Notes under the pieces: generated by a model
Told to the model about the DNA's origin: nothing
Database searches by the model: none
What the model saw: the letters and a program-made list of their open reading frames with translations, nothing else
Shown: piece after piece, positions 13,579-29,183 of the stretch
Numbering within the stretch: the stretch's first letter is position 1
How the letters are laid out: each line of letters opens with the position of its first letter
Program-made: the position numbers and the translations under genes
DNA from: Solobacterium sp.
GTDB lineage: Bacteria; Bacillota_I; Bacilli_A; Erysipelotrichales; Erysipelotrichaceae
NCBI GenBank assembly: GCA_016284975.1
Contig: JAEEPV010000048.1
Coordinates: 1-31,844 of the forward strand
Direction: 5' to 3'
DNA: 31,844 bases

Positions 13579-15030
13579 ATGAGTTATGGAGAAATGAAGG
13601 GCTTCAAGGAACACTTTTCGTATATGGATTCTATTCTGAGGGTAAAAGCGGCCGATTCATCGTTATATGGCGAGACAGTCAATGTTTACGATGAGGATAA
13701 CAATCTTGTAGCATCAGGCACGCTGAACGCTCTGACGGGCCTCTGTGACATTATCACAGACTGTTCCGGTCGACTAAAGGTCACTGCAACAGATGGTGAG
13801 GAAACAGCAACCACCTACGTTCTGATCGCTGGATACGCAACATACAATGTAAAGCTCGGCTTTACATGGCAGTATGGCTTTGAGGTGAATCCAAGCGATT
13901 CTAACCCGGCAACAGCGGTATCTGCACTTGCAGATTGCGATAACGCAGATTTTGATTCTGCATACATGGATTTCGCAAACGGATCATTCCACTGGGGAGA
14001 TTGGGAAGATGCGCCATTCCTGCCGCGTCCCTGTATGCTGAAAAATGATGGTACGGTTGATTATTATCTGGATCCGTCTGATTACACCAAGAAAGCTGAC
14101 GGCACCGCTTCCGATATCGCAAATACATCCTACGCCGGAAATGCAATGATGGAATGGGATACGATCTATACACTCCACGCAGCATCTGGCGGAAGATACA
14201 TCACCCGCATTTCCAATAAAAAGCTGGGCGCAAGCTGGGAAGCGTGGTCTTTCCACAAGAAGGACGGAACGATTGCAGAGCATACTTACATGCCGATCTA
14301 TGACGGATCGCTTGTCAGCAATGTACTGAGGTCTCTTTCCGGACAGACACCAGAAAACAACCACAACACTGCAACACAGAGAACTTATGCTCAGGCAAAC
14401 GGCACAAACTGGGATATCGATTACCTGAATGACCGTATCATGGTCAACGACCTGCTAACGCTCATGTCGCTTAATCTGAACGGGCAGGCTGCCTATGGCA
14501 CTGGCTACTGTACAGGCGGATCTTCTGCAGCTTCTCTTAAGCAGACCGGAACCATGAACGATAAAGGTCTATTCTGGGGCGCAAACGATGAATCGGCTGG
14601 TGTGAAAGTCTTCGGTATGGAAAATTGGTGGGGCAATATCTGGAAGCGCACGCTGGGCCTGATCAACGCCAACGGTACTCAGAAAGCGAAAATGTGCTGG
14701 GGCAAAGAAGACGGCTCCACGGTTGACGGCTACAACACGGACGGCTCCGGATATATCACGATTCCGAACGCGACGCCGGGCGGAACATCCGGAGGTTATG
14801 TGAATGCGGTGGCCATGACAGACTTTGGACCATTCCCGAAGACTGCTTCCGGATCTGCTACGACGTATTGGTGTGATGGCCTTTGGTATAACAATAGCCA
14901 GAACAACCTGGCTCTGTTTGGTGGCAACTGCAGCGATGGTTTGCTTTGCGGCCCGTTCTGCGTCGATCTGGCCGATACCGCTTCGTATGCGTCCTGGAAC
15001 CGCGGCGCGCGCCCTTCTTATAAAATCTAA
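13579..15030 (+). CDS. DGR target: receptor-binding protein with C-type-lectin/FGE-like variable C-terminus
   Basis: The 483-residue protein begins with a small domain (residues 1-95, with an Ig-like LYGETVNVYDEDNNLV). A long C-type-lectin/formylglycine-generating-enzyme-like domain follows, with VFGMENWWGNIWKRTLG near residue 350 and the hallmark end ALFGGNC...GARPSY. The last ~40 residues (443-481) are encoded by VR at 14907-15021, a mutated copy of the TR downstream. Eleven codons differ from TR. This is the usual design of DGR tropism proteins such as Mtd: a stable fold with a randomised binding face. It is the last gene of the tail tip block and most likely contacts the host surface. Confidence 0.92.
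   Translation: MSYGEMKGFKEHFSYMDSILRVKAADSSLYGETVNVYDEDNNLVASGTLNALTGLCDIITDCSGRLKVTATDGEETATTYVLIAGYATYNVKLGFTWQYGFEVNPSDSNPATAVSALADCDNADFDSAYMDFANGSFHWGDWEDAPFLPRPCMLKNDGTVDYYLDPSDYTKKADGTASDIANTSYAGNAMMEWDTIYTLHAASGGRYITRISNKKLGASWEAWSFHKKDGTIAEHTYMPIYDGSLVSNVLRSLSGQTPENNHNTATQRTYAQANGTNWDIDYLNDRIMVNDLLTLMSLNLNGQAAYGTGYCTGGSSAASLKQTGTMNDKGLFWGANDESAGVKVFGMENWWGNIWKRTLGLINANGTQKAKMCWGKEDGSTVDGYNTDGSGYITIPNATPGGTSGGYVNAVAMTDFGPFPKTASGSATTYWCDGLWYNNSQNNLALFGGNCSDGLLCGPFCVDLADTASYASWNRGARPSYKI
14907..15021 (+). repeat. DGR variable repeat (VR)
   Basis: 115 bases at the 3' end of the target gene align without gaps to the template repeat 218 bases downstream. Fifteen positions differ and 14 are at template adenines; the single other change is a template T (15220) to G (15002). 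The 3' part keeps a GC-rich block (GGCGCGCGC) in both copies, as expected for the initiation-of-mutagenic-homing (IMH) end. The T-to-G and the A-to-C at 15014 flank it and may be the fixed IMH/IMH* differences. Confidence 0.95.
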
Positions 15031-15124: not shown

Positions 15125-15239
15125 CCTGGCTCTGTTTGGTGGCAACTGCAACAATGGTTTGCAATGCGGCCCGTTCTACGTCAATCTGAACAATACCGCT
15201 TCGAATGCGAACTGGAACATCGGCGCGCGCCATTCTTAT
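15125..15239 (+). repeat. DGR template repeat (TR)
   Basis: This is the noncoding master copy of VR. It has 25 adenines in 115 bases, of which 14 correspond to other bases in VR. They cluster in AAC/AAT codons if read in the target frame (seven Asn codons, plus CAA, TAC, ATC and CAT), the design that lets adenine mutagenesis reach many amino acids without stops. It lies 107 bases before the RT start. An accidental open frame crosses it (15069-15290) but has no ribosome site. Confidence 0.95.
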
Positions 15240-15346
15240 CCAATTACTGTCAGAATGTTCCGCAAATTCCGTGGCTCATGCCAAAAATAAACCTGATACA
15301 GTTGCCGGTCAGTAGTCAATCGAAATCCGGTTAGGGGATAAGAAGT

Positions 15347-16456
15347 ATGAAATCGTATAACCATTTATACGAAAAGATATATGATCCTGAGAATCTTCGA
15401 CTAGCGATACATCGGGCGGCCAAAGGTGAAAAGAAGAAAAGCCGCCGCGATGTGAAGTATTGCCTGGCTCACGAAGAGGAAACGATCAAACAGCTGCATG
15501 ATCTGCTTGTAAATGAGCGCTATGAATTTCACCAACATCTTCCGCGGATGCGGTATGATCAGAACTCACACAAGTTCCGAAAAATCATAGCGCCATCTTA
15601 TTATTACGAGCAGATCATTCATCACGCGATCATACAGGTACTGATGCCAATCTTCATGAAAGGCATGTATGAGTATTCCTGCGGTTCAATACCAAAACGC
15701 GGCGCTTCATATGGTAAAAGGTACCTTGAGCGCTGGATCCGGAATAATCCAAAGAAACGGAAGTATGTCCTGAAGATGGATATACACCATTATTTTGATT
15801 CTGTTGATCATGACGTTATCAAAGCAAAGATCCGCAATAAATTTCATGATGAAAGACTTGTGAGATTGTTGTTTGCAATTATTGACGGCCATGAAGATTC
15901 ACCCGGAAGAGGCATTCCGATCGGCTACTATACAAGCCAATGGATATCAAACTGGATTCTGCAGGATTTGGATCATTATATCAAGGAAGTCCTAAAAGCA
16001 CCGTGTTACATCCGGTATATGGATGATATGGTGATTCTTGGACCGAATAAACGGGAACTGCACAAAATGAAGGATGCGGTGGAGCGGTATCTTCGCGATG
16101 AGATGAATCTTAAGCTTAAGAGGAACTGGCAAGTATACCGATTCGATTATGTAAAGAGGGACGGAACCCGCATTGGGAGAGATATCGATTTCATGGGATT
16201 CCGCTTTTTCAGCGATAAAACAACCATGAGAAAACGCGCTCTTAAGAAATGCAGAAGGAAGGCCGCAAAGATCGGTCGGGCAGAATCAAATCCGAACGCT
16301 TACGAGAGCATGCAGATGATCAGCCACATGGCTCAGCTCACTGCCACAGATACATATGGTTATTACGCCAGATATATCAAAGGGAAAGTGAATGTGCGGC
16401 AGATGAGGAAAACCATTTCAAGATGGTCGAAAAGGAGAAACGAGGATGGAAATTAA
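15347..16456 (+). CDS. DGR reverse transcriptase
   Basis: The 369-residue enzyme copies the TR RNA into cDNA with errors at adenines, which then replaces VR. The RT fingers and palm are present: SIPKRGASYGKR (RT2), LKMDIHHYFDSVDH with catalytic D145, GIPIGYYTSQW at 189-199 carrying the DGR/group II SQ motif, the catalytic YMDD at 224-227, and FMGFRF (thumb border). The C-terminal ~80 residues are basic. No maturase or endonuclease domain is attached, which argues against a group II intron. The start is ATG after GGGGATAAGAAGT. The stop lies inside the next tail gene, so the RT is coupled to the structural operon. Confidence 0.96.
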   Translation: MKSYNHLYEKIYDPENLRLAIHRAAKGEKKKSRRDVKYCLAHEEETIKQLHDLLVNERYEFHQHLPRMRYDQNSHKFRKIIAPSYYYEQIIHHAIIQVLMPIFMKGMYEYSCGSIPKRGASYGKRYLERWIRNNPKKRKYVLKMDIHHYFDSVDHDVIKAKIRNKFHDERLVRLLFAIIDGHEDSPGRGIPIGYYTSQWISNWILQDLDHYIKEVLKAPCYIRYMDDMVILGPNKRELHKMKDAVERYLRDEMNLKLKRNWQVYRFDYVKRDGTRIGRDIDFMGFRFFSDKTTMRKRALKKCRRKAAKIGRAESNPNAYESMQMISHMAQLTATDTYGYYARYIKGKVNVRQMRKTISRWSKRRNEDGN

Positions 16457-20159: not shown

Positions 20160-20184
20160 CAAAAAAAGCCTCATTTTTGAGACT
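20160..20184 (-). terminator. Terminator overlapping the integrase stop
   Basis: On the minus strand AGTCTCA-AAAA-TGAGGCT (one G-T pair) is followed by T7. The stem includes the integrase TGA stop codon. Confidence 0.75.
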
Positions 20185-21217
20185 TTTCCAACGCGTTCAG
20201 GAAGTTCAAAGAGGCGCTTTGCGCATTGTCGAAGATGTGCGCATATACCTCCATCGTCACTTTCGGAGAAGAATGTCCGATTCTTTTTGAAATTTCCGGA
20301 ACCGGCACGCCTGCAGCCCAGAGCATCGAAACATGGCTATGCCGCAGATCGTGGATCCGCATTGGCGGAAGATCTGCTGCTTTCAGATTTGCCTTGAAAT
20401 GTTTGTCGATCGTCGTGAGGCAAAGGGGAGCATAGTCCCCAAAAAGGTATTTTCCTTTTCGTTTCATGAGCGGCTGCAGCATTCTGATTGTAGCATCATC
20501 CAGCGGCACCCACCTCTGTATGCTCGTTTTTGTGGGCCGTATGCTGTCCTCGTATCGGCGCATAGATTTATATATGTGGATCTGTTTTCCGTCGAAATCC
20601 TCTTTCAGGAGCGCCCTGGCTTCGCCTTTGCGGCATCCTGTCATGAATAACAGCTGGAAGTATGCCAGCAGGATCTCATTTTCTTCGTTTTCCATGAGCT
20701 TCTTAAACTGGCCATAATTGATGATCGCCATCTCGTGAAAGTCTTCCACGGTTTTCGGAAAGGACTTCAGCACTTTTGTATTGTCGGGAATGTCGTAGTT
20801 TTCCCACGCAAACCGGCCGACCTGTTTCACATATCCGATGATGTCATTTTTTGTCGCTGTTGCAAGATCTGTTTTTCCAAGATCCTCACGCCACTGTTGG
20901 ATATACGGTTTGGTGAGTTTGGCCATTGGTTTATTCCAAAGCTTTTCCGCATATCGCTTCATGCGCTGCCTGCGGGTGACGGTAGTTGTGTCGTTGGCAC
21001 GGTTGGCCTGAGACATTGCCTCGAACATTTCAGAGAACTTCTGTGATGTACCTACAGGGCTGTTTCCTTTGTGAGTAAGCTCCCATGCCTTTGCGGCATC
21101 AGATGTGCGAAAGCCGCTTTTGTGTTTGAGCACCATGCTTCCGTCTTTGTCTGCAGCATAATAACGGCACTCATAACGGACTTCTTTATTTTTGAGTCTA
21201 TATTTGCTTACAGTCAT
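20171..21217 (-). CDS. int: Phage integrase (tyrosine recombinase)
   Basis: The 348-residue enzyme inserts and excises the phage at attP/attB. It has an N-terminal arm-binding region (residues 1-55), a SAM-like core-binding domain (~60-160) and a catalytic domain with R196 (GCRKGEA), K230 (PTKTS), H289 and R292 (HDLRHSH), H315 (GHSSPK) and nucleophile Y325 (EVYAHIF). All catalytic residues are present. It is read towards attP and carries its own terminator. A GGAG site 7 bases before the ATG supports the start. The repressor gene is 17 bases upstream, so the two share a lysogenic transcript. Confidence 0.96.
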   Translation of the reverse strand: MTVSKYRLKNKEVRYECRYYAADKDGSMVLKHKSGFRTSDAAKAWELTHKGNSPVGTSQKFSEMFEAMSQANRANDTTTVTRRQRMKRYAEKLWNKPMAKLTKPYIQQWREDLGKTDLATATKNDIIGYVKQVGRFAWENYDIPDNTKVLKSFPKTVEDFHEMAIINYGQFKKLMENEENEILLAYFQLLFMTGCRKGEARALLKEDFDGKQIHIYKSMRRYEDSIRPTKTSIQRWVPLDDATIRMLQPLMKRKGKYLFGDYAPLCLTTIDKHFKANLKAADLPPMRIHDLRHSHVSMLWAAGVPVPEISKRIGHSSPKVTMEVYAHIFDNAQSASLNFLNALEKSQK

Positions 21218-23737: not shown

Positions 23738-24580
23738 ATGAGCAACAAAAAGAGCTTCGTTTTTTATAACTCATACGGTGATGTGTTTCGGGAACTGTCA
23801 GGAGATCAGGCGAAACGTCTGATTCTGGCCATGGTGGATCTTAACAAAACCGGAGAGGCGAAAAACCTCTCCGATGATCCCGGCCTCGGCCTTGTCTGGG
23901 CGCTGATTTCGGATCAGATAATTCGTGATACTGAAAAATATGAAGCGAAATCTGCTGCGGGGCGGAAAGGTGGAAGACCGAAAGAAACGACAAAAGCACC
24001 CGAAAAGCAGGCGAAAAGCACCCGAAAAGCACACGCTGGTGATAATGATAATGAGAATGATGATGTTAATGATGATGATAATGCTGATGTCGATGAGAAT
24101 GTGAATGATAATGCATTACCATCTCCCGCTCCCGCTGATATTTCTTCCCCCGCTGAGACTAAACGAGTTGCTGACGCACTTCCAGATGAAACTGTGATTT
24201 CAGATACTCCGTTCGAGACATTCTGGAACCTTTACCCACGGAAGGAAGGGAAGAGATACGCATGTTCCGCTTTTACGACTGCCATGATCAGAGATACACC
24301 GGAGGCCATCATTGCTGGGCTGCGGAAGGTGATTGATCTGAGATGGTCGAAGTATCCGCCGGAAGAACAGGACTTTATTCCAAAGGCGGAAAAGTGGCTG
24401 AAGGGGCTGAGCTGGCAAGACGATGTCAAACCGTATGTGCCGAAAAAGAACACGAAGCGCAAGGATGTACTGCCTGAATACTATGATCCGAATCCGAATC
24501 GGGCATCTTCCGGAGAGAAGGTGTCTGCAGAAGAACTGGCAAAAATGAAGAATTTACTGCAGCAAACAAGGAGGAAATAA
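23738..24580 (+). CDS. Replication initiator/replisome organiser (DUF6291-like with DnaD/DnaT-like C-terminus)
   Basis: The 280-residue protein has an N-terminal domain (residues 1-75, KSFVFYNSYGDVFRELSGDQ) of the phage DUF6291 type. Residues ~85-100 cover the iteron DNA. A very acidic Asn/Asp linker (residues ~103-125) comes next. The C-terminal domain (FETFWNLYPRKEGKRYACSA, EKWLKGLSWQDD) resembles replisome-organiser ends that load helicase. It probably opens the phage origin located inside its own gene. It has a strong AGGAGG site and is followed two bases later by the clamp-like gene. Confidence 0.75.
   Translation: MSNKKSFVFYNSYGDVFRELSGDQAKRLILAMVDLNKTGEAKNLSDDPGLGLVWALISDQIIRDTEKYEAKSAAGRKGGRPKETTKAPEKQAKSTRKAHAGDNDNENDDVNDDDNADVDENVNDNALPSPAPADISSPAETKRVADALPDETVISDTPFETFWNLYPRKEGKRYACSAFTTAMIRDTPEAIIAGLRKVIDLRWSKYPPEEQDFIPKAEKWLKGLSWQDDVKPYVPKKNTKRKDVLPEYYDPNPNRASSGEKVSAEELAKMKNLLQQTRRK
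23992..24035 (+). repeat. Four tandem 11-bp iterons, probable replication origin
   Basis: The units AAAAGCACCCG, AAAAGCAGGCG, AAAAGCACCCG and AAAAGCACACG follow one another without gaps. The 11-base period keeps all on one helix face and is not a multiple of three, so the encoded residues (TKAPEKQAKSTRKAHAG) do not repeat. The repeat is therefore kept at the DNA level. An A/T-rich stretch of GAT/AAT triplets (24036-24116) follows and could be the unwinding element. Confidence 0.7.
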
Positions 24581-24581
24581 C

Positions 24582-25643
24582 ATGAAGATCAAAGGCGAAT
24601 ACTTTAAGCGCTGCATGGAGGCGAACATCTTTCGTGCATCCGAAGGTGTGCTGAGTATTCACAGTTATGCGAAAGATGGATCCGGAATCATCCGGAAGCT
24701 TGTCAATGAGGCAGATACGGACAAGACCGAGGAAATGACGTTCTTTCTCACGAAGTCAGATGCCGATGTTGTCTCATCGTTCAAAGATCTTGACGTGTCT
24801 TTCAACGAGAAAACAAACACCATCACGTTTGAATCTGCCGGAACAAAGTGCAGATTCCAGAACGTTCAGAGCATCAAAGAACCTGAGCCGCCGATCAAGG
24901 ATGCAAAGGAAGTATCTTTCACTCTGGCTGAGCTGAAAGAGGCTGCTGCCGTTGCGGATCTTGATGAGAAACACCCGGATAACAAAGGCGCAGGCATTCT
25001 TGTAGGCACCGACAGTCTGATCACCTATGACAAGCAGCTTTCTCTGTATTACCGGCATAACGGCGGAGAAGAATCTGGATCGAAAGAACCGGTGCGTATA
25101 CCGGCAACCGCAATCAAACTGGCGGATTCCGGGAGAACATACAATTTGCGCCTGAGTGATAAAACAGTCGCACTCATGGCAGACTCTGAGATCATCTATT
25201 CCAGTGTTTATCTAGGATATACGCCGAGCTTTCTTGATTACGATCCGAAGCCGGCCGGAAACATTCTGATCGGGAAGGATCACGTAAAGGATTTCGTGAA
25301 TCACATCAAGATGTGCTCCGTCTTCAATCAAAATGTCCGGATCACGATAGACGGAGACAGCCTGCGCATTGAGAACTATCTCGATCTTGAAAACCCGCGG
25401 GTATACGAGGCGGCTGTTCCGGCGGCCTCGAACATCGAAGGCTATTCGATGCTGTTCAATGCGAGAGGAATGCTAAAACTGCTGGCGGCGCTTGATGTGA
25501 TCAACGGGGAAGATCTTACGCTGCTTGTGGATGACAAGATGGTCAGAGTAGACAGCAGTAATGACTTCATGGTCATGGCCGCGACATTGAATGCTCAGAA
25601 TGTACAGCTGAAGCTGAAGGGAGAAGCAAATGGAAATGGATGA
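24582..25643 (+). CDS. Sliding-clamp-like protein (DNA polymerase III beta type)
   Basis: The 353-residue length fits three clamp domains. The middle part has PVRIPATAIKLADSGRTY and then VYLGYTPSFLDYD, like the beta-clamp domain 2 pattern of ...IPAKALKEL... and ...GxFPDY. The C-terminal part YSMLFNARGMLKLLAALDVI with a final DFMVMAATL corresponds to the domain 3 pattern of FNARYLLDAL and YLVMPVRL. A phage clamp would hold polymerase on DNA. Its place after the initiator and before the ubiquitin-like genes is notable. Sequence likeness is low, so the call depends on pattern and context. Confidence 0.65.
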   Translation: MKIKGEYFKRCMEANIFRASEGVLSIHSYAKDGSGIIRKLVNEADTDKTEEMTFFLTKSDADVVSSFKDLDVSFNEKTNTITFESAGTKCRFQNVQSIKEPEPPIKDAKEVSFTLAELKEAAAVADLDEKHPDNKGAGILVGTDSLITYDKQLSLYYRHNGGEESGSKEPVRIPATAIKLADSGRTYNLRLSDKTVALMADSEIIYSSVYLGYTPSFLDYDPKPAGNILIGKDHVKDFVNHIKMCSVFNQNVRITIDGDSLRIENYLDLENPRVYEAAVPAASNIEGYSMLFNARGMLKLLAALDVINGEDLTLLVDDKMVRVDSSNDFMVMAATLNAQNVQLKLKGEANGNG

Positions 25644-25986
25644 CGTCTTTGGCATGCTGACGGCAGAAAAAGCTGACATGCCTTCCGATAAACCAGAAAA
25701 ACCGAAGAAAACCGAAAAAGCAGAAAAACCGGCCGAAAAGAAGAAAGAAACGGCAAAAAAGGACGGAAAACCGAAGAAATTCAAATATCCGTTCCAGCTG
25801 TACATGGGATCCCGACTGAGAGATGTTACGGGTCTGTTCGAAGACGGGAAAGAGTATTCCGATGATGAGATCACAAAGATCATGCTGGCAAACGATGAGT
25901 ACTTCTTTTCTGGAAAAATCGAATACGACTACATTGCCGATACAAACACTGTTGTTGCAATGTCGATCCAGCACAAGAAAGGATAG
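25630..25986 (+). CDS. Ubiquitin-like protein (PRTRC protein C-like)
   Basis: The 118-residue protein has a Lys/Glu/Pro-rich N-terminal extension (residues ~18-50) and a C-terminal beta-grasp-like domain. From KKFKYPFQLYMGSRLRDVTG through EYSDDEITKIMLANDEYF it follows the PRTRC-C/Prok_Ub order: strand, L-x-D-x-x, a ...YS-x-x-E(I/V)... helix and a final strand. It ends HKKG, with one terminal glycine like the G-T-K-G end of PRTRC-C. It would be activated by the E1-like enzyme two genes downstream. It overlaps the clamp-like stop by 14 bases. Confidence 0.65.
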   Translation: MEMDDVFGMLTAEKADMPSDKPEKPKKTEKAEKPAEKKKETAKKDGKPKKFKYPFQLYMGSRLRDVTGLFEDGKEYSDDEITKIMLANDEYFFSGKIEYDYIADTNTVVAMSIQHKKG

Positions 25987-25988
25987 CG

Positions 25989-26234
25989 ATGAAAACAGCA
26001 CAGAAAAAGACTGACATGGTATCACATCCGCCGCATTATACAGCAGGCGGCATTGAGTGCATCGATGCGCTTGAAGCGGCAACGCAGGGACTGACAGGCA
26101 TCGAGGCCATTGATACCGCGAATGCAATTAAATACCTGTGGCGCTGGAAGCATAAAAACGGAGAGGAAGATCTGAAGAAAGCAATCTGGTACATTACACA
26201 CCTGATCAAGCATCTCAGAGGTGAAAAGCGATGA
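25989..26234 (+). CDS. DUF3310-like protein
   Basis: The 81-residue protein reads MVSHPPHYTAGGIECIDALE, then IDTANAIKYLWRWKHKNGEE and DLKKAIWYITHLIKH. The H-P-x-H-Y start and the A-I-K-Y-x-W-R-W-x-x-K-N-G core are the hallmark of DUF3310, a widespread phage family sometimes labelled nucleotide kinase without proof. It overlaps the ThiF-like start (ATGA) so the two are coupled. Confidence 0.9.
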   Translation: MKTAQKKTDMVSHPPHYTAGGIECIDALEAATQGLTGIEAIDTANAIKYLWRWKHKNGEEDLKKAIWYITHLIKHLRGEKR

Positions 26235-26902
26235 GTGAGTACTGCTTTTATATCGTAGGTGTCGGCGGGACAGGGTCTCTTCTCGCGAGAGATCTTCCGC
26301 AGCTGCTGATCTCGTACCGCCAGCATGAAATGTGCCTCATAGACGGTGATACTGTCGAAAAGAAGAATCTCACACGGCAGAGATTCCAACCTGATGATGT
26401 GGGCTGCAATAAAGCTGTGGCAATGGCCAAAAAGATAAATTCCTTCTATCCGATCGTGTGCGACGCGATGGATCAGTACATCTCAGACCGTGAACTGCTC
26501 GCAAAGATCCGAAAGAGTGAAAAGATACCTGTGATCATCGGCTGCGTGGACAACGATGCGACCAGACGGCTTCTTGAGAAGACATTTCAGAAGCTGGAAA
26601 CGGCTGTCTATATCGACAGCGCAAACAGTGCGTATTCCGGCAATGTGTTTGCCTGTGCGAAGCATAACGGCACTTGCTACGGGAAAACCCGCGGGCAGGT
26701 CCGGCAGCTTGGCCACAAAGACAGGAACCCGGCCGAAATGTCTTGCGAAGACCGTACCGGATCCGGCGAGCTGCAGTATTTCGTTACAAACGCAAAGATG
26801 GCGGTTTGTGTACTTGAACACTGTTTCAGTCTGATCCAGGCAGGCGATCCGGTAATGACGGGGGTGACCAAAGTTGATCGATTTGAGGAAATACATTACT
26901 GA
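26231..26902 (+). CDS. ThiF/E1-like adenylyltransferase (PRTRC ThiF-like)
   Basis: The 223-residue enzyme should adenylate the C-terminus of a ubiquitin-like protein. The ATP-binding GVGGTG is at residues 10-15, DGDTVEKKNLTRQRF at 38-52 supplies the D and R-Q pair, and DVGCNK at 56-61 supplies the Lys. CVDNDATR lies at 105-112, and SCEDR with C172 is a candidate transfer cysteine in the place where PRTRC ThiF has an S-C segment before a Q...N motif (here LQYFVTN). It lies between the Ub-like gene and the E2-like gene, so the three form one cassette. Confidence 0.85.
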   Translation: MSEYCFYIVGVGGTGSLLARDLPQLLISYRQHEMCLIDGDTVEKKNLTRQRFQPDDVGCNKAVAMAKKINSFYPIVCDAMDQYISDRELLAKIRKSEKIPVIIGCVDNDATRRLLEKTFQKLETAVYIDSANSAYSGNVFACAKHNGTCYGKTRGQVRQLGHKDRNPAEMSCEDRTGSGELQYFVTNAKMAVCVLEHCFSLIQAGDPVMTGVTKVDRFEEIHY

Positions 26903-27704
26903 GGGCGATGAACCGGCCATCTCGAAGCTGATCAAGGCTGTTCTGAAGCATACCACCGCAAACACTCTGGATCATTTTGAAGCGTTAGGTGCTTACAACG
27001 AAGAGGTGCTGTATTCAGTCGGAAGCGAGCTTGTTGGAGAGATCTTCTTCGGATGGGAGCTTGATGACTATTCCACTTGGGGAGATCAGTACAGCAATAC
27101 CGCAGGAGTTGAATTTGGGCTGATGAATCCGCTGCTGTATGCTCTGATCGCCTCTGTGTTTCCGGAATCTGCATTTGAAACCTTTGGATATCAGGACAGC
27201 TCGCTGGCCATGGTTGAAATGGTCCTGAATTATCAGGAAGATCCGCACGGTACAGACTGGCAGATGCCAGTGTATGAAAAACTAAAGGATTATTACTTGC
27301 ATGTGCTAGGCGGAAACGAAAAGGCTGCATGTGACGGATTCAGTGAAGACCTTGGCGGATCGCTGATCATGATCCACTTCAAAGAAGAATGCGACATCGA
27401 TCTTGTGGAAAGGCTGATGAGCTTCTTCGATTTTGGAGAGGCAGACGATACGTATTTCTCGGACCTCGTAGAAAACGACGGGTCATATTCTTGTGGAATT
27501 CCGATGTACGGAATTCTTGAAAATGCCGCAGAGCTTGCAGAATTCATCGAAAAGCACGGCATCAACAGCAAAACACTGACGGGCCGCGGTATCAGAACAG
27601 CGGAGCGCATGGGTGAAGCGCTGGAACAGGAAAGCCCGAACTCTACAGCAATCATAGCAGCGCTGATGAGTCTAAGACATTCAGAGGAGTTGATTATCTT
27701 ATGA
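26874..27704 (+). CDS. Unassigned protein in the ubiquitin-like cassette
   Basis: The 276-residue acidic protein is rich in aromatic residues (GWELDDYSTWGDQYSNTAGV, then FGLMNPLLYALIASVFPES) and lies between the E1-like and E2-like genes. I do not recognise the family. It shows no JAB metal motif (HxH...S...D) and no obvious nucleotide site. The start is TTG at 26874 with GGGGGTGA 7 bases before; it overlaps the E1-like gene by 29 bases. Position suggests a cassette partner such as the remaining PRTRC proteins, but this is inference. Confidence 0.6.
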   Translation: MIDLRKYITEGDEPAISKLIKAVLKHTTANTLDHFEALGAYNEEVLYSVGSELVGEIFFGWELDDYSTWGDQYSNTAGVEFGLMNPLLYALIASVFPESAFETFGYQDSSLAMVEMVLNYQEDPHGTDWQMPVYEKLKDYYLHVLGGNEKAACDGFSEDLGGSLIMIHFKEECDIDLVERLMSFFDFGEADDTYFSDLVENDGSYSCGIPMYGILENAAELAEFIEKHGINSKTLTGRGIRTAERMGEALEQESPNSTAIIAALMSLRHSEELIIL

Positions 27705-28333
27705 GACAGGCAGTAATCAGGATCACGTCCTCAAAGAAGGATGCGGAAATACTGGTGAAACAGAACGGAAAAGAGATCTGGAAAAACATCAGCATCAAGG
27801 ATCTGAGCAAAAAGATCCGGAGTTTTGAACCGGACGATGGAGGAAGAGGCGAAAAGCCGGAGCTCCTCGATAAGAGAATCCTGGCGATCGGTACAGAAAA
27901 GATCCTGTACCGGGAGCCGGAACGCCGCAGGCTGGTCTTCTACGGCGGCAGATCATTCGAAATCAACTTCCCCGCTGCAATCAACGAAGTATCCTACCAC
28001 GGCGAAAGGATCAAAGGTCTGCGCTGCTGGACCTATCTGAAATGGCAGGGGCTGAACACTGTCCTGTACCAGATGCCGATGCCGAACATGACGAGTTCCG
28101 AAAGAATGTGCATCGGTACAGCTGACCGGACGATTATTGGAGGGAATGTACTCGAAGCCGTGGATCGGATCATCGACACGGAATACAGTCATGATCATGT
28201 CGATAATCTGAAAAAATCGACCAGCACCGTTAAATGGTTCACCCATCTGAAAAAGAACCATGTTTCCGCGGAAGATCTGAAGCGCCCGGATTGTAAGCTG
28301 TCAGATCTGGTTGAGAAGGGAGGCAGATCATGA
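27701..28333 (+). CDS. PRTRC protein B/Prok-E2_D-like protein
   Basis: The 210-residue protein resembles PRTRC-B: the strand RRRLVFYGGRSFEINFPAA, then LNTVLYQMPMPNMTSSERMC near residues 117-137 and a late WFTHLKKN. In PRTRC-B the same order is T-x-L-Y-x-x-P-x-x-N, then V-C-x-G and S-x-F-T-H. C137 (MCIG) would be the candidate thioester cysteine if the family is a real E2. It starts in an overlap with the previous stop and ends in an overlap with the next start. Confidence 0.65.
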   Translation: MRQAVIRITSSKKDAEILVKQNGKEIWKNISIKDLSKKIRSFEPDDGGRGEKPELLDKRILAIGTEKILYREPERRRLVFYGGRSFEINFPAAINEVSYHGERIKGLRCWTYLKWQGLNTVLYQMPMPNMTSSERMCIGTADRTIIGGNVLEAVDRIIDTEYSHDHVDNLKKSTSTVKWFTHLKKNHVSAEDLKRPDCKLSDLVEKGGRS

Positions 28334-28524
28334 TCGATATCAATCTGCTTCCGGAAAAGGAGCTGCTTGCGGTGATCGTACAGTATCCGGACAGCAAAAA
28401 AGAGTTCGCGGTATTTCTGTACCGCCATGAAATAGACGAGTTTTCGAAGAACAGCACCGCAAAGGTGATCCGGATCCGGAACTCTGTGAACGGGAAGGAG
28501 GTGTGGCCATGTCTCGACAGCTGA
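28330..28524 (+). CDS. Small hypothetical protein
   Basis: The 64-residue alpha/beta protein (MIDINLLPEKELLAVIVQYP, then FAVFLYRHEIDEFSKNSTAK) has a good GGGAGG site. It overlaps the E2-like gene by 4 bases and the recombinase gene by 16. I see no known family. Confidence 0.6.
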   Translation: MIDINLLPEKELLAVIVQYPDSKKEFAVFLYRHEIDEFSKNSTAKVIRIRNSVNGKEVWPCLDS

Positions 28525-29183
28525 AACGGTTTCAGCCGAAAGGCTCAAAATACAAGCGCAAGACTGCCGACAAACACGGGCAGGAGATCGTGAAGCCGTT
28601 CCTCAAGAGCGACTACGACGAAATGCAGCGCATCTGCAAGAGCATGCAGGAATCCTGCGCCAGCGGTACGGACGCTTACTACAGGCACGCCAGAGACTCG
28701 ATCCTGATGCATCTCGGTGTGAACTGCGGCGCAAGGATCACGACGCTCATAGAGCTTACCTGGCGGGATATCATGGGCGGAATGCTCACGATCACAGAGC
28801 ACAAAACCGGAAAGCGGACGCAATGGCAACTGAATGACAAAGTATTCGATCCGATCCAGCGGTACGTAAAAGAATTCGGGATACTGGAAAATCAATATCT
28901 CTTCACACCGGACCGGCGCACAGACTTTCCGATTAACCGAGCAACGGCATGGAGACGGATCAAGATCTATGCCAAGAAGGCAAAGATACAATACCCGGTC
29001 GGCTGTCATTCCCTGCGGAAATCCTATGCCCGGTGGGACTGGGATGAAAACAGGGACCTGCTGCGGGCTTCGAGTCTGCTTGGCCATGAGGATCCACTGA
29101 CAACAATGACCTATATCTGCCTCGAAAAAGGCGATGTCCAAGAGGCCAGAAACCAGATTGATAACACCTCAAAATGGCTGTAG
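28509..29183 (+). CDS. Second tyrosine recombinase (Xer/integrase-like, short)
   Basis: The 224-residue protein keeps the catalytic domain: R76 (GARITTL), K99 (EHKTGK), H157 and R160 (CHSLRKSY), H183 (LGHEDP) and Y192 (MTYICLE). It has only a short N-terminal part, so it lacks an arm-binding region. It may resolve dimers, act in integration control or DNA inversion. The ATG at 28509 has AAGGAGG at 7 bases; a GTG two codons upstream is less likely. Inverted repeats lie just downstream of its stop. Confidence 0.9.
   Translation: MSRQLKRFQPKGSKYKRKTADKHGQEIVKPFLKSDYDEMQRICKSMQESCASGTDAYYRHARDSILMHLGVNCGARITTLIELTWRDIMGGMLTITEHKTGKRTQWQLNDKVFDPIQRYVKEFGILENQYLFTPDRRTDFPINRATAWRRIKIYAKKAKIQYPVGCHSLRKSYARWDWDENRDLLRASSLLGHEDPLTTMTYICLEKGDVQEARNQIDNTSKWL

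Follow-up and report, generated by a model that had tools for sequence, protein, structure and literature searches.

A predicted JAB-less ubiquitin-like conjugation cassette in a phage replication operon, related to the Prok-E2_D operon class

An operon class that combines E1-like, E2-like and ubiquitin-like (UbL) proteins was predicted in 2006 by Iyer et al. (Genome Biology, Table 1, row 6d; PMC1779556). As described in that row, the Prok-E2_D operons encode a small UbL with a C-terminal Gly, an E1-like enzyme, an E2-like enzyme, an extra fast-evolving, largely alpha-helical protein and a JAB peptidase; a Cys with a conserved downstream His is described by these authors for the fourth operon type. 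Here, we report a related cassette at positions 25630–28333 of a 31,844-nucleotide stretch of DNA from Solobacterium sp. (contig JAEEPV010000048.1 of GCA_016284975.1; hereafter the window). It encodes a UbL, a DUF3310 protein, an E1-like enzyme, a protein designated X, and an E2-like enzyme, and it sits in a phage replication operon. The components of row 6d are largely recognizable: the UbL is a small beta-grasp protein with a C-terminal Gly, an E1-like adenylating enzyme is present in the operon, and the E2 has a Cys plus a conserved downstream His. X, encoded directly upstream of the E2, is a fast-evolving, helix-rich extra protein, but it is not demonstrably the alpha-helical protein of that class. 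In contrast to row 6d as described, the phage cassette has no JAB peptidase, its UbL gene ends at the mature Gly, and it is located in phage replication operons. Because a JAB peptidase is absent from the operon, the cassette is considered to be a variant of row 6d rather than a full member.

The UbL-E1-X-E2 set is interpreted as a ubiquitin-like conjugation system of phages that lacks JAB and is related to Prok-E2_D; it would be expressed with the phage replication genes and act at the sliding clamp or the replisome. We assign this combined reading a probability of roughly 0.55. The genes of the operon lie on a single strand, in the order of initiator-like protein, DnaN-like clamp, UbL, DUF3310, E1, X and E2, and adjacent genes overlap by 4 to 29 bases or are separated by gaps of 1–2 bases. 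The features are as follows.

23738–24580, forward strand: replication-initiator-like protein, just before the clamp gene (Pfam DUF6291, 8.8e-16; PHROG primosomal and replication-initiation matches, 1e-17 to 1e-9)
24582–25643, forward strand: phage DnaN-like sliding clamp, directly upstream of the UbL gene (PHROG 947; hhalign against DnaN)
25630–25986, forward strand: UbL, ubiquitin-like modifier of 118 aa (AlphaFold2 model, VIA-align, profile match, ends of homologs)
25639–25659, forward strand: UbL residues 4–10 (DDVFGML), the N-terminal motif (pattern kept in 47 of 57 phage UbLs)
25972–25983, forward strand: C-terminal HKKG of the UbL, predicted adenylation and conjugation end (K-G invariant in 119 homologs among the matches listed)
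25989–26234, forward strand: DUF3310 protein (Pfam DUF3310, 1.4e-15)
26231–26902, forward strand: E1-like adenylating enzyme (ThiF, 1.3e-21)
26874–27704, forward strand: X, a fast-evolving alpha/beta protein of 276 aa between E1 and E2
27701–28333, forward strand: E2-like conjugating enzyme of the Prok-E2_D/PRTRC_B superfamily (C137 and H164 invariant in 15 of 15 rows)

The four genes are conserved as one block. A search with an E2 alignment found 11 of the 315 genomes of the order and 4 of 392 genomes in a phylum-wide sample, all four from the same order. It also found four titled genomes, those of Anaerorhabdus furcosa, Amedibacillus dolichus, Dielma fastidiosa, and an uncultured Erysipelotrichaceae bacterium; the three named species belong to Erysipelotrichales, as do the known hosts of the block-bearing phages and probable prophages. 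The same search found eight viral contigs, and a UbL search found six more, five of which were used. After repeats (L014–L016, L020–L022, L024–L036 and other short search loci) were counted once and L065, a fragment at a contig end, was dropped, 20 distinct loci remained. UbL, E1, X and E2 are encoded in the same order and on the same strand in all 19 distinct loci holding the four genes; at the twentieth (L062), the UbL gene is cut by the contig end. The order was confirmed by a script in 15 of 15 loci, and the other five also agree. Viral-collection contigs account for 13 of the 20 loci (nine directly, four via identical or matching viral copies). Six loci (L013 and L037–L041) are presumably also of phage origin; the neighbors tested there include a DnaD-like loader and RusA, SSB, RecE-like and RecT-like proteins. 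None of the 18 other complete loci has a gene between UbL and E1. The DUF3310 insertion is seen only in the window, and the DUF3310 protein probably does not belong to the module. The E1 open reading frame of the Dielma fastidiosa prophage (L012, 10083–10637) begins late and lacks the nucleotide-binding N-terminus; this cassette may be decaying, or the sequence may be faulty, and it was left out of the E1 alignment.

The E1 matches ThiF in Pfam, and its best NCBIfam model is PRTRC_ThiF, under the cut-off. Across 14 distinct phage E1s, GVGGTG, D38, D40, N46, R49, Q50, K61, D107 and C172 do not vary; the candidate catalytic C172 is likewise found in 15 of 15 plasmid-borne and other phage relatives. 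The D/N/R/K/D spacing presumably agrees with that of the adenylation residues of MoeB. The E2 falls just under the Prok-E2_D cut-off, and its match to PRTRC_B is weak; 6 of its 10 database homologs bear a precomputed Prok-E2_D domain (PF14460). Its profile, compared with a set of 11 PRTRC_B/E2_D members, gave a probability of 98.4% (E 6e-15). The model of X is helix-rich, with a pLDDT of 82 and a pTM of 0.79, and no solved structure convincingly resembles it. Identity to the X of the window is only 11–33% in 20 of 21 rows. X shows no detectable relation to PRTRC_F (0.1% in hhalign) and no profile similarity to X', the corresponding protein of the plasmid operons described below. Its place directly before E2 may recall that of PRTRC_F in pMOL28 and of the extra protein in the 2006 class, which is a positional argument only.

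The UbL has an N-terminal hydrophobic motif, a K/E-rich linker, a beta-grasp domain at residues ~50–118, and the HKKG end in the AlphaFold2 model. Its profile matches plasmid UbLs with an E of 1.5e-6. Among the 120 homologs listed of 179, the C-terminus is [HYF][KR]KG in 119; the remaining one, P0119, stops at KQ, is apparently truncated, and was left out of the end profile.

The preliminary description of this locus had proposed a cassette of Ub-like, E1-like and E2-like proteins in a phage replication operon without JAB peptidase or PRTRC ParB, and had pointed to the GVGGTG, D/N/R/Q and C172 residues of the E1 and to C137 of the E2. This proposal is well borne out: the beta-grasp fold of 25630–25986 was recovered in the model and with VIA-align, the product of 27701–28333 belongs with PRTRC_B/E2_D by profile, the genes co-occur in other phages, and the residues named are invariant in the aligned rows. 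Because the parts form a line of activation and conjugation with intact catalytic residues, conjugation is probably the chemistry of the cassette, as judged from sequence. It is somewhat better than an even chance that this conjugation acts at the clamp or the replisome.

A JAB peptidase is missing near the phage cassette. Prok-JAB (PF14464) was found in only one of 11 host genomes, under the cut-off and ~2.5 Mb from the cassette, and PRTRC_A was found in none of the 11, with a positive pMOL28 control. Plasmids of Bacillaceae, Alicyclobacillus and some other Bacillales encode the UbL as the N-terminal portion of a longer polypeptide. The C-terminal part of the Bacillaceae fusions shows a weak, under-cut-off match to Prok-JAB in 5 of 5 tested (4e-4 to 8e-5). 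In the Alicyclobacillus UbL-JAB protein (L046), PRTRC_A matches the C-terminal part at 8e-15, and PRTRC_C matches the N-terminal part at 0.0075, under the cut-off. The UbL part before JAB ends in HKKG, KKKG, RKKG, GKKG or similar, mostly in KKG, which is where the phage UbL stops. Since the phage UbL gene already ends at KKG, its product would need no peptidase for maturation. Plasmid loci of Clostridioides and Thermoanaerobacterium encode the UbL as a separate protein whose C-terminus is NKG or KKG, and a JAB search of six proteins neighboring these UbLs found no match.

The gene directly upstream of the UbL gene encodes a sliding clamp homolog. It matches PHROG 947, DNA polymerase processivity factor, at 1e-5, and has no match in Pfam. 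A profile of 10 phage clamps aligned with four DnaN proteins in hhalign at 95.3% (E 2e-8), and at 96.9% (E 1.7e-10) in the reversed comparison, over 282 columns; the homology to the beta clamp thus covers most of the gene. Against DnaN, seven unrelated profiles gave 0.2% or less, and the DPMA proteins described below gave 11%. The clamp gene is directly upstream of UbL in 10 of the 19 loci with left context. The remaining nine come from viral contigs and a second host family; blastp found no clamp in them, and SSB, RusA, RecT or other proteins are encoded at this position. A search of 294 genomes of the order gave six strong matches to the clamp family, all beside the cassette; these six are also members of the search model, and there are three weak matches besides. 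In the loci without a recognized clamp (L037–L041 and L060–L064), an acidic DPMA or DPMLA tip is often found at the C-terminus of a protein of 213–279 aa and of RecT-like proteins; we take this tip to be reminiscent of the C-terminal tip of SSB. The 213–279 aa protein is unrelated to DnaN by profile.

Clamp linkage recurs in plasmids. Among 72,556 plasmid records, a Halobacillus E2 query found 43 and its DnaN found 317. In at least 13 of the 43 E2 records, no more than 3 kb separates dnaN from the E2 gene. Both genes could be placed in 18 of the 43, and 13 of these 18 have them within 3 kb, whereas placing the genes at random on these plasmids would yield 0.69. These linkage counts are lower bounds because they draw on 60 listed DnaN records each of 317 and 422 in the two DnaN searches. 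The 13 linked records represent some nine related lineages of Bacillaceae and could all derive from a single operon, composed of Rad52, dnaN, a small protein, X', E2, UbL-JAB and E1. In five Bacillaceae plasmid loci (L073–L077), the small protein encoded between dnaN and X' has an acidic C-terminal tip, for example EDDFI. Other arrangements are also observed. In a gut phage contig (L055), E1 is directly followed by dnaN; in Azospira, dnaN precedes the PRTRC genes; in Alicyclobacillus, dnaN is near JAB and E1. In a Sporosarcina plasmid (L080), dnaX, for the gamma/tau subunit of the clamp loader, overlaps the end of the E1/ThiF gene; a 5'-3' exonuclease gene is found upstream there. Linkage to dnaN is mostly not seen in proteobacterial PRTRC loci among the matches listed, and no dnaN is annotated in the fetched stretch of plasmid loci L042–L045, L047, L049–L051, L053, L069, L070 and L079.

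The N-terminus of the modifier may offer a second link to the clamp. The consensus for clamp binding is given as QL[S/D]LF, more generally QxxLF, in a study that reports a variable first position in DnaE3 (PMC12309361). Plasmid UbL-JAB proteins often begin with QTDIF, QSSLF, QGDLF or similar sequences. The pattern Q-x-[SDTGN]-[LIMV]-F, which is broader than the published QxxLF, is present in the first 25 residues of 11 of 14 such proteins: 5 of the 6 in which it was first noticed and 6 of the 8 looked at afterwards. The published QxxLF fits 3 of the 14, and the other eight have Ile for Leu. Among 30 other proteins of five operons, none has the motif in its first 25 residues, and one has it internally. 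Of the loci whose fetched stretch includes dnaN, 9 of 10 carry the motif; of those whose stretch does not, 2 of 4 carry it. In phages, the pattern D[ILVFM][FWYLIM]x[MLIFV] was found within the first 30 residues of 47 of 57 UbLs, vs. at most 4 of 57 in 500 shuffles. The clamp-binding Gln is absent from it (0 of 57 with the strict pattern, 4 of 57 with a relaxed one). By sequence, the phage motif appears to resemble the clamp-binding motif only, and without the Gln it is not assigned to it. A docking function common to both groups is better founded for the plasmid UbLs; for the phage UbLs it is a reasoned guess.

The same conjugation chemistry may instead be aimed at host proteins, for takeover or counter-defense, with the clamp linkage merely reflecting placement in an early operon. 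Such a placement would give early expression, and the nine loci without a recognized clamp are consistent with it. However, clamp and clamp-loader genes recur beside the cassette in plasmids with other gene orders, together with a clamp-binding-like N-terminus there, and one block kept across divergent phages would be less expected for a counter-defense gene. We consider this alternative unlikely, although it is the strongest of the four weighed here. It is less likely still that the cassette is a prophage-carried defense module against other phages, like Bil or the E1-E2 systems of CBASS. The E1 does match PADLOC E1-E2 models at 4e-11 and weaker, but these matches span the adenylation domain only; the UbL, X and E2 match none at E of 0.1 or below, and the genes lie inside a replication operon with no JAB nearby.

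Still more doubtful is the explanation that the cassette is what phages have kept of a PRTRC-type system for plasmid maintenance or transfer. PRTRC_ThiF is the best model for the E1 and PRTRC_B is the best NCBIfam model for the E2, and the place immediately before E2 is taken by X in the phage cassette and by F in pMOL28. All matches are nevertheless under the curated cut-offs: the E1 scores 69.7 of 144.75 bits and the E2 21.8 of 131.45 (best 33.9 in four relatives tested), and the UbL has no match to PRTRC_C. Over the cut-off, PRTRC ParB and protein A are absent from all 11 host genomes, while the pMOL28 controls scored 2e-231 and 2e-72; under-cut-off ParB matches occur in all 11 genomes, none on the contig of the window. 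As X is moreover unrelated to PRTRC_F by profile, the earlier suggestion that the cassette is a stripped-down PRTRC system does not hold, and membership in PRTRC is already largely refuted. Least likely of all, the UbL and E1 would be a sulfur-carrier pair of the ThiS/MoaD type for a modification or cofactor step, with another role for the E2-like protein: the ThiF-type E1 is clearly similar to ThiS adenylyltransferase models, but the E2 gene occurs at 20 of 20 loci, its C137 and H164 do not vary in the 15 aligned rows, C172 is common to the E1s of E2-linked systems, and no sulfurtransferase is found among the matches of the cassette proteins. None of these alternatives accounts jointly for the clamp linkage, the E2 and the position in replication operons.

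For conjugation at the clamp, we infer the activity, the target, the docking, the role of X and the benefit to the phage along the following lines. The E1 would adenylate the ready-made C-terminal Gly of the UbL, and the UbL would be handed from C172 of the E1 to C137 of the E2. The E2, with H164 and probably with X as an adaptor or ligase-like factor, would join the UbL to a target amine. The N-terminal motif of the UbL, on its flexible K/E-rich linker, would dock at the sliding clamp, so that conjugation would take place at the clamp or replisome of phage forks, or would tether the target there. A more specific and tentative version, which we consider possible but improbable, is that the UbL is a portable clamp tag, whose N-terminus binds the clamp and whose Gly is joined to other proteins. 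Through conjugation, chosen proteins of the phage (or of the host) would then be attached to the clamp at phage forks, or the clamp itself would be modified. If so, clamp-directed SUMO/ubiquitin signaling would have a viral counterpart in prokaryotes, common to phages and large plasmids, and without JAB the tagging would not be reversed by a peptidase of its own. The minimal four-gene version, the adjoining clamp and the clamp-binding-like end in plasmids make two questions testable: whether the modifier binds the clamp, and what is tagged. Should the target prove to be a replisome protein, eukaryotes would not be alone in having ubiquitin-like control at the sliding clamp, and its simplest form could be studied in phages.

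The window is the entire contig, from a 2.2-Mb draft genome that is ~70% complete. Its other phage genes encode a large terminase, portal, head protease, major head protein, tape measure, reverse transcriptase and integrase. A second tyrosine recombinase gene (28503–29183) is found just 3' of the cassette, separate from the integrase gene (20171–21217), and its homologs are near the cassette in several relatives. The contig ends (1–253 and 31474–31844) carry the gene preceding the large terminase on the left and an HNH gene on the right. Because these two genes are neighbors in the Dielma fastidiosa prophage, the phage genome in the window is suggested to be packaged or circular rather than integrated, though an integrase gene is present; no overlap between the contig termini was found. 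A pair of 120-nt repeats (14907–15026 and 15125–15244), in which 14 of 17 differences fall on adenines of the second copy, adjoins the reverse transcriptase gene (15347–16456). Together, they are probably a diversity-generating retroelement, with the variable repeat at the end of the open reading frame 13579–15030.

Compared with the other known systems, the phage cassette shares with PRTRC (pMOL28 type; TIGR03734–TIGR03738) a related E1 and E2, and its UbL is linked to PRTRC_C via the plasmid UbL-JAB proteins. It differs in lacking PRTRC ParB and A, in its scores under the cut-offs and in gene order, and its UbL is longer, with the N-terminal motif and linker. The Bacillaceae plasmid operon (Rad52-dnaN-Y-X'-E2_D-[UbL-JAB]-E1; L072, L073 and L075) shares the clamp, E2_D, the KKG end of the UbL, a motif of the D-[IL]-F type and E1, whereas its UbL is fused to JAB, its motif has Gln, its gene order is different, and X' is not similar to X by profile. 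The E1 profile matches UBA5 best among solved structures (E 6e-9). UFM1/UBA5 and SUMO-PCNA of eukaryotes offer an analogy only, in a modifier with a flexible N-terminus and in modification at the clamp, with no orthology claimed. Bil (BilABCD), as described in PMC11354881, also has ubiquitin-like, E1 and E2 genes together, but with a tandem UbL and a JAB, and it serves bacterial defense, whereas the phage cassette is phage-borne and JAB-less.

Among the papers listed by the open-licence full-text searches made here, judged mostly by title and abstract, none dealt with a phage-borne or clamp-linked version, and none gave a function for row-6d or PRTRC operons in its title or opening abstract. 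The deposited genome of Bacillus phage KLEB27-3 has consecutive genes for a protein aligning with the E2_D set, a protein noted as PRTRC_A, and ThiF. The novelty claimed in the preliminary description is therefore narrowed: the operon class was described in 2006, and KLEB27-3 already carries a phage-borne relative. What is added here is the conserved fourth gene X, the linkage to the sliding clamp and, in the plasmid relatives, a modifier whose N-terminus resembles a clamp-binding motif.

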